Source: a virus
Direction: 5' to 3' (one strand)
Length of the DNA stretch: 37,929 bases
Virus record (IMG/VR): IMGVR_UViG_3300036851_000028
Location: 1 to 37,929 of that record
Part shown: piece by piece, positions 4,201-32,261 of the stretch
Layout: each line of letters begins with the position of its first letter
Numbering within the stretch: position 1 is the stretch's first letter
The notes under the pieces: model-generated
Told to the model about the DNA's origin: nothing
What the model saw: only the letters and a program-made list of their open reading frames with translations
Database searches by the model: none
Program-made: the position numbers and the translations under genes

Positions 4201-4713
4201 CTACTGCCCCGGCTTTGGCTGCGCGGGTTGAACTAAAGGGGAGAGAGCTGTAAATGCATCCTGGTAAGCTGCGTTCACAAGCCCTTCTATCAAGCTATCC
4301 AGGTTGGGCGTTTTATCCACAATCGTTGGATCAATCGCAACCAGCCTATCCTTGAGCCACGCTTTAGCCTTAGCCTTCTTCTCTGCCCCTGTCTGCGTAT
4401 CAGGCCCAAAGCTAGTCTCAGCCGCCCTCACAGCCATACCAGCCAGCACAAACGCCATAGAGTACCACTTGCCCTGCTCACTCGTCTTAGCCTCTCTCAG
4501 CTTAGTCGCCACAAACATGGAAATGCGGCCTGATAGCCAAGTTAGGGCACCTAGGAGGATGGGGAATATGGACGCAATGAGTGTCGCATACCAAGGAGAG
4601 CCAGGAGGTGTCGCAATAGAGGACACCGTAATGGCTGTTTCCTCTGCTGCCCAAAGAGGGAGAGCTAAGAGTGATGTAAGCCAAACCAACATACTTATTC
4701 TATAGAATATCAT
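4201..4713 (-). CDS. Holin, LL-H type (superfamily 6)
   Basis: A 170-residue protein. Hydrophobic segments lie at about residues 5-23 (possibly a cleavable signal, ending PLWAAEE) and 43-62 (ATLIASIFPILLGALTWLSG). A cytoplasmic part follows with KWYSMAFVLAGMAVRAAE and GAEKKAKAKAWL. The AVRAAE and EKKxKxxxWL signatures are those of the LL-H holin family, which make membrane pores at the end of infection. The start is ATG 4713, chosen because GGAGG lies 5 bases upstream; an upstream in-frame ATG at 4734 overlaps the previous gene and lacks this site. It is the last clear gene of the late block. The endolysin candidate is far away at 31827-32261. Confidence 0.85.
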   Translation of the reverse strand: MIFYRISMLVWLTSLLALPLWAAEETAITVSSIATPPGSPWYATLIASIFPILLGALTWLSGRISMFVATKLREAKTSEQGKWYSMAFVLAGMAVRAAETSFGPDTQTGAEKKAKAKAWLKDRLVAIDPTIVDKTPNLDSLIEGLVNAAYQDAFTALSPLVQPAQPKPGQ

Positions 4714-4723
4714 TGAATCCTCC

Positions 4724-4858
4724 TTATTTACCAAGCCACATAAGAATGCAGCCTATGACCATTATAACCGCTCCAACCACTTGCACTTGCGGTATACCAT
4801 GAAGGATGGAGCTGCACTGGATCAGTGTAAGCCCTGTCCATAGTAAGTAAATACCCAT
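4724..4858 (-). CDS. 44-residue membrane protein
   Basis: A very small frame with AGGAGG 7 bases before its ATG. The product has two hydrophobic segments (IYLLWTGLTLIQC at residues 3-15 and VVGAVIMVIGCILMWLG at 27-43), so a hairpin membrane protein is likely. It sits directly before the holin, whose ribosome site overlaps its stop. It may be a second holin, an antiholin or a lysis regulator (inference from position and topology). Confidence 0.7.
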   Translation of the reverse strand: MGIYLLWTGLTLIQCSSILHGIPQVQVVGAVIMVIGCILMWLGK

Positions 4859-4872
4859 AAGTTACCTCCTGT

Positions 4873-5238
4873 TTAACCAAACGCAAGCTTGTATAAAGCA
4901 AGCAACAAGCTAACTATAGACACCGCCATCGTGATGAACATAGACTTCTGAGAGGCTTTGCCTTCAAGCACGGCTTTACTGATATTAAGATCATTAATCT
5001 GTTGCACGATAAGCTCATGCTTGGACTCGTACACATCCTTTGTAAGGAACTTTGAGGCCTGATCTTTCAACTGCTCCCTAAACTCATTCATCCCGTCAAG
5101 CCTTCTGTCCATAGCAGCCGTAGCAACCGAGACAGCCTTTTCATATGAATTAAGCCGCTCCTCTAGTCTGGCAATATTAGTCTCTAACTGCCACACATTT
5201 AATGTGCTCTGTTTATTTGAGCCGCCTAGATATTTCAT
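4873..5238 (-). CDS. Coiled-coil protein with C-terminal membrane anchor
   Basis: A 121-residue protein. Residues 15-90 are charged helix (ETNIARLEERLNSYEKAV, then MDRRLDGMNEFREQLKDQAS), followed by EGKASQKS and one membrane helix at about 98-118 (FITMAVSIVSLLLALYKLAFG). This architecture, with the phrases MNEFREQL and EGKASQ, is common in proteins next to phage holins, whose role is not settled. With its N-terminus inside and its C-terminus at the membrane it is not a classical spanin. The first 26 bases overlap the response-regulator gene, so the two are probably translated together. Confidence 0.75.
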   Translation of the reverse strand: MKYLGGSNKQSTLNVWQLETNIARLEERLNSYEKAVSVATAAMDRRLDGMNEFREQLKDQASKFLTKDVYESKHELIVQQINDLNISKAVLEGKASQKSMFITMAVSIVSLLLALYKLAFG

Positions 5239-5677
5239 CGGCCTTTAGACCAAAAAGATTGTGTTTGCGCTTAAGTTCATGCTTGGCTGTTGCGAGAGTC
5301 AGACATACAGGAAGAAACGCTTTATTGATATCTAACTTCATAAAGCACTCATAGGCACCTTCGGCTATTAGCTTAATATTCATCAAGTCATTACTAGCAC
5401 CTGTCAGCACAACGATGGGCGTATCTTTTGAATCTTTTTTGACGCTTAGAAAGGTGTCTATACCATTCGAGTCAGGAAGGTTTAAATCAAGCATGATTAT
5501 ATCAAAGATGTCTTTTTTCAGTAATTCAAGGCTGCTTTCTAATGTGCTCACATTTACAACAAGGAAAGTCTGCCCGTGGCCTTCTTTTTGTAGGAGGTCA
5601 GTAACAATCATTACATCGTCTGCATCATCTTCAACATAAAGGACTTTAATAACACTTGGTACAACTTCACTATTCAT
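5213..5677 (-). CDS. CheY-like response-regulator receiver protein
   Basis: A 154-residue stand-alone receiver domain with an about 30-residue basic helical tail. All key positions of the family are present: the acidic Mg2+ pocket in YVEDDADD (E16, D17, D18), the phospho-acceptor D64 in IIMLDLNLPDSNG, the switch Thr92 in VVLTGAS, and Lys114 in CFMKLD. The usual Pro after that Lys is Leu. There is no output domain. Two-component receivers are normally phosphorylated by a host histidine kinase; none is encoded here. It overlaps both neighbours (a membrane coiled-coil protein on each side) and lies in the lysis end of the late block. A role in sensing or timing is inferred; capture from a bacterial host is likely. 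Confidence 0.92.
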   Translation of the reverse strand: MNSEVVPSVIKVLYVEDDADDVMIVTDLLQKEGHGQTFLVVNVSTLESSLELLKKDIFDIIMLDLNLPDSNGIDTFLSVKKDSKDTPIVVLTGASNDLMNIKLIAEGAYECFMKLDINKAFLPVCLTLATAKHELKRKHNLFGLKADEISRRLK

Positions 5678-5934
5678 TTATTCCTCCTCTCCACGGCCTT
5701 CAGAGCGCTTTCCATGATGTCTGTGAATCTAGACATCACACTACTCTGAGACTTATATATATCCATCTGATCATTAAACATTTTGTTCGTAGTAAGAATA
5801 AGCTTATCATTGGCCTCAGATAGCTTCTTTTGAAGAATAATGTTCTGCCAATAGAATATAGCAGCTAGAGTCAGAAAAGGACTGCTTTCTATGAAGCTGG
5901 GTATTACCTCTTTAAAAATCCAATTAAAGTCCAT
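5674..5934 (-). CDS. Membrane protein with cytoplasmic coiled coil
   Basis: An 86-residue product from ATG 5934 (in-frame ATGs at 5952 and 5961 would add 6 or 9 residues). One hydrophobic helix at about residues 12-34 (SPFLTLAAIFYWQNIIL) is followed by about 50 residues of polar helix with heptad spacing (KKLSEANDKLIL and onward). The stop overlaps the response-regulator start as ATGA. Topology is the mirror image of the protein at 4873-5238. It could be a membrane partner of the receiver or a lysis-associated protein; no family recognised. Confidence 0.7.
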   Translation of the reverse strand: MDFNWIFKEVIPSFIESSPFLTLAAIFYWQNIILQKKLSEANDKLILTTNKMFNDQMDIYKSQSSVMSRFTDIMESALKAVERRNK

Positions 5935-5935
5935 C

Positions 5936-6103
5936 CTATTGTTTGGTCCCATTATCCACAACGTTAGATTTAGCTCTATTGATTAGCTCATTCTCTAGCG
6001 CCTGAATAGTCCTATCAGCGTTAGCCTTAATAACTAACTGATCGTAAATGCAAGACTTGATTTCCATCTCATTCATATCCTGAATCATCTTACTCTCTGA
6101 CAT
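5936..6103 (-). CDS. 55-residue helical hypothetical protein
   Basis: A small frame with AAGGAG 5 bases before the ATG. The product is acidic and helical (MIQDMNEMEIKSC, then ALENELINRAKSN) with no membrane segment. It opens the group of small genes leading to the response regulator and abuts the next start. Function unknown. Confidence 0.65.
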   Translation of the reverse strand: MSESKMIQDMNEMEIKSCIYDQLVIKANADRTIQALENELINRAKSNVVDNGTKQ

Positions 6104-6125: not shown

Positions 6126-6956
6126 TCAGTATATCGTCGCAGAGTACAGTGTGCTTGCAAAGATATTTGAGTCATCATCAAATGGTTCAGTGTACCCCTG
6201 TGGAGAATTTGTAGGGGTGCCTGGAAGCTCAGCTGCATAGTTTCTGATAGACGTTGCGCCTGACGCTGTTACACCATTTGCAAAATCATTTAGTTCGCAA
6301 TACAGTTTAAGATTAGATGGGCTGATGAAGCGGCCAACGCCTTTCTTAGGATTGCCTAGTCCATATAGCTTATCAATATCAGAGCTAGTCAAAACATATC
6401 CTGTCCAGATGTAGGTTTCAGTTAGCCTCCCATTCCACCATCCACTGCGCCCACCACTAGAATTAAGCGCAGCCCCAAATCCAAGGTGTTGAATACAGGT
6501 ATCCTCTGGGCTTGCTTGCGCGTTTGTTAAGGCACCAGATAGGATAAGGGTTCCTATAGACGCCCCATTGACATAGCCGTAATAGGTACGGGCTGTTGGT
6601 CCTGTATAGCCTAAGACAAGATGGAACCATGTATTAGCTGTGAGGGTTACTGGTGAGGCTGTAGTCCAAGGACGATTCTGTCCGTTGTTCTCATCCTCCC
6701 AATCAGCAACGAATGTGCCGAGTGCCGTAGACCATCCAATCATGTAGTTGGCATTAAGGTTAGCTGGAGAGTCCGCTTCTCCAGACCCCTTACAAAGGAT
6801 TGGCTCAAGGTTTGTGCCGCCTGTTCCCGTCGAGATAGTAGTCCCATTCCCAGCACGATTAACCCATATAGACACAGCCCATGTGTTTCCGTTAAAGGCT
6901 ATGTTATGGCCGAAGGTAACGTAGGACGTATTTGCGGGTGTAAATGTGATAGCCAT
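6126..6956 (-). CDS. LamG/concanavalin-A-like tail or receptor-binding protein
   Basis: A 276-residue protein. Residues about 5-210 follow the laminin-G/concanavalin-like jelly-roll pattern: WAVSIWVNRAG, then a middle NTWFHLVLGYTG, YYGYVNGASIG and a late WWNGRLTETYIW, the usual order in LamG_3-type domains. These domains bind carbohydrate or mediate assembly in phage tails. It ends the fibre gene group and starts in a TAATG overlap with the gene upstream. No signal peptide. A role in host surface binding is inferred. Confidence 0.8.
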   Translation of the reverse strand: MAITFTPANTSYVTFGHNIAFNGNTWAVSIWVNRAGNGTTISTGTGGTNLEPILCKGSGEADSPANLNANYMIGWSTALGTFVADWEDENNGQNRPWTTASPVTLTANTWFHLVLGYTGPTARTYYGYVNGASIGTLILSGALTNAQASPEDTCIQHLGFGAALNSSGGRSGWWNGRLTETYIWTGYVLTSSDIDKLYGLGNPKKGVGRFISPSNLKLYCELNDFANGVTASGATSIRNYAAELPGTPTNSPQGYTEPFDDDSNIFASTLYSATIY

Positions 6957-31669: not shown

Positions 31670-31830
31670 TGGACACTAAGCTGGTCAATGCCGCTGTTAA
31701 GATTGAGCTAATGTTACAGAGAGGGATTAAGTCTAAGATGACCATAGCTAGGCTTCAGGCTGATTTGGATAGGCTGAATGACTCTATGACGCCGGAAGAG
31801 CGATTCGAGTTTATTAAGAGGACGACATGA
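31669..31830 (+). CDS. 53-residue helical hypothetical protein
   Basis: A small frame (LVNAAVKIELMLQRG, then ARLQADLDRLNDSMTPEER) coupled to both neighbours by overlaps. Strong coiled-coil pattern; no Cys. Function unknown. Confidence 0.65.
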   Translation: MDTKLVNAAVKIELMLQRGIKSKMTIARLQADLDRLNDSMTPEERFEFIKRTT

Positions 31831-32261
31831 GGCGTATAGCTATGGTTGTAATAGCTGTCTGCTGCTTAATGGTGCTGGCTGTATCTGTACATGCTGAGAG
31901 TGAAATAGTTTATCAGACAATTGCTATGGAAGCAGCTGGGGAATCGGATGAAGGACAGGCTATGGTAGCCAGCGTGATACTTAATCGGGCTAAGAAGTCT
32001 AAGAAGACGCTTGAGGCGGTCTGTTTGCAGCCTAAGCAGTTCAGCTGCTGGAATAGCCGTAAATGGGCCCAGGCGTGGCTTTCCCTGCATTATGACGCCC
32101 AGGCTAGGTACAGGGCGGTAAAGGCCCTAGAAACGGCTAGGAATGCAAATCTGGGGCATGCCACACACTATCACACAACCAATATTAAGCCATATTGGTC
32201 TAAAGGACATAAACCAAGCGTGGTTGTAGGTCGCCATGCTTTCTATGAGGGGATAGACTAA
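31827..32261 (+). CDS. SleB-type cell-wall hydrolase, secreted endolysin candidate
   Basis: A 144-residue protein. Residues 1-23 are a Sec signal peptide or SAR-type segment (MRRIAMVVIAVCCLMVLAV, site VHA). The rest is the Hydrolase_2 (SleB/CwlJ) domain: AMEAAGESDEGQAMVASVILNR with the conserved Glu35, PKQFSCWN at 69-76, ATHYHT at 112-117 and PYW, and the end VVGRHAFY. These enzymes cleave peptidoglycan glycan strands. It is the only clear lytic enzyme in the window, yet lies among early genes, on the strand opposite the holin. An alternative role is wall opening at entry. ATGA overlap with the previous gene. Confidence 0.87.
   Translation: MRRIAMVVIAVCCLMVLAVSVHAESEIVYQTIAMEAAGESDEGQAMVASVILNRAKKSKKTLEAVCLQPKQFSCWNSRKWAQAWLSLHYDAQARYRAVKALETARNANLGHATHYHTTNIKPYWSKGHKPSVVVGRHAFYEGID

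Follow-up and report, generated by a model that had tools for sequence, protein, structure and literature searches.

Single-domain response regulators of the CheY, Spo0F and DivK type consist of a receiver (PF00072) with no output domain, and phosphorylated receivers act through altered protein contacts. Holin timing, in turn, is usually seen as a phage-intrinsic clock whose input is limited to antiholins or lysis inhibition. Other proteins with a single transmembrane (TM) helix occur in lysis cassettes: in Gordonia phages, extra one-TM, often highly charged proteins are arrayed beside the endolysin and holin (PMC9671378), and the C-terminal coiled coil of the phage D29 holin affects oligomerisation and lysis timing, as cited in the same paper. 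XhlA and BhlA/UviB haemolysin/holin-like proteins also combine a coiled coil with one TM, in both of the orientations seen at the locus described here. A receiver-like fold is known from jumbo phages as well, where the divergent cREC domain is linked to NAD/ADP-ribose enzymes and is described as never taking part in kinase signalling (PMC7824862). Receivers, holins and one-TM lysis-cassette proteins are already known separately, while we did not find their combination described. A literature search, which reached few subscription papers, found none joining receivers to phage lysis cassettes, in agreement with an earlier note on this DNA that knew of no standard phage lysis module of this type.

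The window, that is, the whole stretch of 37,929 nucleotides analysed, comes from IMG/VR as a virus record and encodes a terminase, a portal of the SU10 type and a capsid protein of the N4-gp56 type. Its minus-strand late operon ends with genes for a LamG-like protein, a 55-aa protein, a TM-then-coiled-coil protein, a receiver, a coiled-coil-then-TM protein, a 44-aa protein and a holin. We give about an even chance to the following reading: the receiver would act as a single-domain response regulator with the co-translated pair of membrane-anchored coiled-coil proteins as its output, and phosphorylation of its residue D64 would alter the holin and lysis or another membrane event.

The receiver gene (5213-5677, minus strand) encodes 154 aa and follows a strong ribosome binding site, GGAGAGGAGGAATAAATG, with the Shine-Dalgarno (SD) sequence AGGAGG. 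It matches Pfam PF00072 (Response_reg) with 57.3 bits (E=2.1e-15), above the gathering score of 30.2, and it matches only this family, the search revealing no second or output domain. The earlier note had called it a complete CheY-type receiver without output domain, and Pfam, the alignment and the AlphaFold2 model all bear this out. Of the active-site residues then listed, D64 (the putative phospho-acceptor), T92 and K114 stand, but the acid pair placed at D17/D18 was one residue off: in the pocket E16/D17/D18, the N-terminal acid pair of CheY aligns to E16/D17, and D18 is an additional acid. Among 42 aligned receivers D64 is invariant, and D17 and K114 are kept in at least 90%. The model (pLDDT 93.2, pTM 0.85) shows the (beta-alpha)5 receiver fold, in which the last helix (121-153) is unusually long at 33 residues. 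The heptad positions of this helix (F121, L128, L135, F142, I149) are all hydrophobic, as those of a coiled-coil face would be, and the best Foldseek matches in the PDB, 6oec and 6oap among them, are receivers that run on into a coiled coil or a signalling helix. This predicted extension is a plausible candidate for the contact of the receiver with its membrane partners. A complete receiver that lacks an output domain must exert its effect by binding other proteins; the fold, the active site, the long helix and the Foldseek matches all count in favour of the reading proposed above.

With CheY, Spo0F and DivK the window receiver shares the fold, the acid pocket, D64, T92, K114 and the absence of an output domain. 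In contrast to them, it is encoded in the lysis region of a phage, with translational coupling to membrane coiled-coil proteins, and has a last helix longer by about 20 residues. Its nearest sequence relatives, at 36-44% identity at best, are the N-terminal receivers of large bacterial kinases and GGDEF proteins (for example in Microcoleus, Roseospira and Haloarcula), which share the motif LDLxLPDSxG and a coiled-coil-like extension after the last helix but are domains of big proteins. Identity with the jumbo-phage cREC (PF20274) was rejected, the window receiver matching only PF00072.

Both neighbours overlap the receiver gene. The upstream TM-then-coiled-coil-like protein (5674-5934, minus strand) ends within it by 4 nt, and has 86 aa if translated from ATG 5934 or 95 aa from TTG 5961. 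The former is the likely start, coupled as TAG-G-ATG to the stop of the gene for the 55-aa helical protein (5936-6103, minus strand). This upstream protein has no family match among Pfam and PHROG profiles, and its hydrophobic segment is moderate to weak (best 19-residue Kyte-Doolittle mean 1.38), which counts against a membrane switch. The downstream coiled-coil-then-TM protein (4873-5238, minus strand; 121 aa) overlaps the receiver gene by 26 nt, has a clear C-terminal TM (residues 100-118, Kyte-Doolittle 2.06) and belongs to a phage family with the motif RLDGMNEFREALKDQASRFITR. The overlapping membrane coiled-coil proteins of opposite orientation described in the earlier note are therefore there, with the qualification that the upstream helix is only moderate. 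The holin and the further small membrane protein that it placed after them were also found: a 44-aa protein with two hydrophobic stretches (4724-4858, minus strand; SD AGGAGG), and a probable holin of the LLH (superfamily 6) type (4201-4734, minus strand), which has about 170 aa from its ATG start. The holin scores 23.9 bits with PF09682, just below the cut-off of 24.9, and matches the PHROG holin profiles phrog_2609 and phrog_608 (E=2.4e-4 and 8.1e-4). Directly upstream of the cassette lies the gene for the LamG-like fibre or appendage protein (6126-6956, minus strand; PF13385, 35.3 bits). The G+C content of the receiver gene is 38%, against 47% for the genome, and the stretches 5674-5961 and 5936-6103 are likewise low (37-38%); this shared composition may hint at joint acquisition of the receiver and the two small genes that precede it.

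Several known identities were considered for the flanking proteins and rejected. XhlA (PF10779) reached 12.1 bits against a cut-off of 34.7, and BhlA gave no profile match. For the downstream protein, an Rz-type i-spanin is not supported, as the TM is C-terminal, the PHROG Rz-like match has an E of 0.003 only and no lipoprotein gene was seen. The one-TM proteins of the Gordonia phage cassettes differ as well, in that they have no predicted coiled coils and no receiver is described beside them (PMC9671378).

The only clear endolysin candidate in the window is a SleB-type Hydrolase_2 with an N-terminal signal-like helix (31827-32261, plus strand; PF07486, 69.3 bits; phrog_938 endolysin). It lies about 27 kb from the holin and on the opposite strand, so that the lysis module is split. 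No histidine kinase was found in the window (no PF02518 match). A phage-encoded two-component system was rejected on this ground, and phosphorylation would therefore require a host kinase or a small-molecule donor, such as acetyl phosphate.

Single-protein scans of IMG/VR returned no close relatives of the receiver, the upstream protein or the terminase, and alignment-based scans were therefore used. The scan with the receiver alignment gave 31 loci, and in most of the phage-like ones the receiver abuts or overlaps a small gene for a one-TM coiled-coil-like protein. This partner lies downstream of the receiver in L051, L058/072, L060, L062/068/075, L063, L070 and L071, upstream of it in L059, L067 (with a weak TM), L080, L084 and L086, and one gene away, as a TM-coiled-coil gene, in L069/073. 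In L064-066 and L074, one protein combines the receiver with the coiled coil and TM, and fusions of a receiver with a membrane helix occur in five phage families (L064-066, L074, L199, L215/219 and L240). The AlphaFold2 model of one fused receiver-coiled-coil-TM protein (L065) is confident in the receiver part only. The closest parallel to the window is L210 (4345-5815), where TM-coiled-coil genes flank the receiver on both sides and a 59-aa protein with two TMs precedes the set. In the Mu-like phages L069, L073, L080 and L081, the receiver has a TM-coiled-coil gene on one side and the small terminase on the other, and a small winged-helix-like gene is also adjacent; the small terminase that comes after the receiver/partner pair in L080 is Mu gp27-like (PF11985, 32.0 bits). 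A receiver with an additional hydrophobic helix is encoded in a 618-kb contig labelled viral (L215, 4983-5750). Among the 50,697 named phage records of INPHARED, receiver matches were weak only, mostly in unannotated or host-like contigs, and none was a convincing case. Several records, such as those of 'Listeria phage LM 4-11-1' and 'Acinetobacter phage MD-2021a', carry response regulators annotated as, or resembling, host genes, which suggests host contamination of these phage-labelled assemblies. The profile phrog_731 was discarded as specific evidence, being a generic receiver profile that also matches E. coli and other control genomes.

We quantified this association with a rule made of simple composition thresholds, with no dedicated coiled-coil predictor, which was fixed after the first set had been viewed. 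A partner had to be on the same strand, overlapping or at most 60 nt away, and 60-260 aa long, with exactly one Kyte-Doolittle TM and a remainder low in Pro+Gly and high in charged/polar residues; the background consisted of the remaining genes of these loci that encode at least 100 aa. In the first set, 13 of the 23 receivers had such a partner, compared with 8/185 background genes (p=1e-9). With the rule unchanged, a second set from two scans with other alignments gave 6/20 against 5/141 (p=5e-4), or 5/19 on a stricter count, since L209 shares the partner family of L062. For the combined, de-duplicated viral receivers the figures are 19/43 and 13/326 (p=4e-12, odds 19), and the enrichment persists when the window is left out (p=2e-11). 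Bacterial-looking loci of the OmpR/KdpE/LuxR or hybrid-kinase type (L078, L079, L082, L083, L222, L225 and L229-L233) were kept in these counts as negatives, while the fusions L199, L215/219 and L240 and the sub-threshold loci L206, L224 and L242 stand outside them. At the nearest chromosomal relatives, an adjacent one-TM coiled-coil gene was found in 0/79, a weak control for the standalone class because only 2 of the 79 are standalone receivers. Small membrane coiled-coil proteins are thus recurrent and strongly enriched partners of phage receivers, a coupling that is well supported, and the arrangement pointed out in the window is far beyond chance.

The partners themselves are mostly unrelated in sequence, which counts against a membrane switch. 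An all-against-all comparison grouped only L060 with L063, L062/068/075/206/209/228 with one another, and L069 with L073, and detected no relatedness for the others, both window partners included. Either the coiled coils have diverged past detection or receivers have been recruited repeatedly to such partners, and the sequences suggest recruitment. Repeated recruitment together with repeated fusion would indicate that receiver and membrane coiled coil are functionally tied, and it is likely that the receiver acts through its membrane partner.

Whether lysis is the target is less certain. Of the alternatives, the one that survives best, which we hold to be somewhat unlikely, is that the receiver/membrane unit is real but serves another end, such as a decoy or phosphate sink for a host phosphorelay, motility, envelope stress or superinfection exclusion. 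A PF02518 histidine kinase is present in 16 of the 31 other receiver records, often in the same gene cluster as the receiver. The large uncultured phage contigs L060, L063 and L064-066 encode a PAS-type kinase, an Rcp1-like receiver and a second receiver with a coiled-coil-TM protein after it or fused to it; L204/205, contigs of the same kind, have an Rcp1-like receiver and a second receiver with the same continuation. These sets are apparently complete phage two-component systems, and those of L060, L063 and L064-066 resemble a general signalling system. Moreover, many large phages with a receiver, among them L063-066, have no recognised lysis gene closer than 5 kb to it; L063-066 have their own kinase and count against a role in lysis. 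Nor was any lysis gene recognised near the L058 unit, and lysis enzymes above the Pfam cut-off lie beside only three receiver loci outside the window. However, the unit is inside or beside holin or endolysin genes in the window and in L070, L074, L200 and L240. The order in L070 matches the window, with the receiver, a coiled-coil-TM gene overlapping by 29 nt and a holin (phrog_1129, E=3.7e-5). In L074, the gene for a CHAP endolysin (36.4 bits, above the cut-off) overlaps that of the fused receiver protein by 4 nt, and amidases are encoded near the receiver/partner in L200 (58.6 bits) and L240 (42.5 bits), as is a weak CHAP match in L198 (18.7 bits). At L200 (4992-5969), the neighbours of a receiver-HD protein (HD_5, 111 bits) are the amidase endolysin and a coiled-coil-TM protein. 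An LLH holin had been suspected in the terminal protein of L221, but Pfam, PHROGs and BLAST do not support this.

The family of the downstream partner is also associated with lysis, which argues against a target elsewhere. Relatives of this protein occur in 41 other IMG/VR records; they have the motif RLDGMNEFREALKDQASRFITR and the C-terminal TM, and R46, N51 and R54 are invariant in 26 aligned sequences. After the homologue, L002 encodes a TM-coiled-coil protein and an SLT lysozyme (SLT_3, 31.9 bits, above the cut-off), while L006 continues with a second coiled-coil-TM protein and a GH25 endolysin (61.8 bits); because of these contexts, we regard the downstream protein as a recurrent lysis-cassette protein. 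Homologues of the window genes, which the earlier note proposed to look for together, gave a divided answer: most phage receivers adjoin a membrane coiled-coil protein, though a different one, whereas in none of the 41 other records with a relative of the downstream protein does a receiver lie next to that relative. Only one of these records contains receivers anywhere, a 273-kb contig (L051) in which another coiled-coil-TM gene overlaps a receiver-GAF gene. Within this family, the receiver of the window is thus an uncommon addition, at most an optional regulator.

These same phages without a receiver favour a second alternative, namely that the receiver is a passenger, small genes being easily gained in the variable late part of the genome that follows the tail-fibre genes, and that its membrane neighbours are incidental. 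The G+C of 38% in the receiver gene, against 47% for most of the genome, and the low values of the two genes before it fit this idea. We nevertheless consider it improbable, given the enrichment over genes of the same loci, the overlaps of few bases, the repeated in-frame fusions and the retained active site. Bacterial single-domain receivers often serve as phosphorelay intermediates, and several Rcp1-type phage receivers adjoin kinases, but an ordinary response regulator of this sort, acting on host gene expression or a host partner and placed here only for late expression, is very improbable, as a late lysis-cassette position is poor for control of gene expression and the membrane-anchor fusions indicate a membrane output.

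We therefore return to the receiver as a switch at the membrane. This reading draws on the complete active site, the overlaps with both membrane genes and the position at the end of the late operon beside the holin, together with the lack of a phage kinase and the same coupling, including fusions, in many phages. A host histidine kinase or a small phosphodonor would phosphorylate D64, and this could change how the long last helix packs with the coiled coils of the neighbours at the inner face of the membrane. The changed packing may then alter the assembly or triggering of the holin, and the time of lysis, or another membrane event, would thereby follow the state of the host. Our best single guess is that the receiver sets lysis timing in the window phage, in view of the lysis setting here and in L070, L074, L200 and L240, set against L063-066 with no lysis gene. 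It is tempting to speculate further, and here we are distinctly more tentative, that many phage lineages independently built a switch, or a fusion, of a receiver that reads a host or phage kinase and a one-TM coiled-coil protein that times lysis.

If true, a phosphorylatable receiver tied to membrane proteins of the lysis cassette would connect the sensory kinases of bacteria directly with the timing of lysis or with other events at the membrane, and phages may thus tap bacterial signalling to control such events. Because the association is recurrent and partly fused, several systems could be tested at once. It would also provide an entry point to the numerous one-TM coiled-coil proteins that are encoded in phage lysis regions and to which no role has been assigned.
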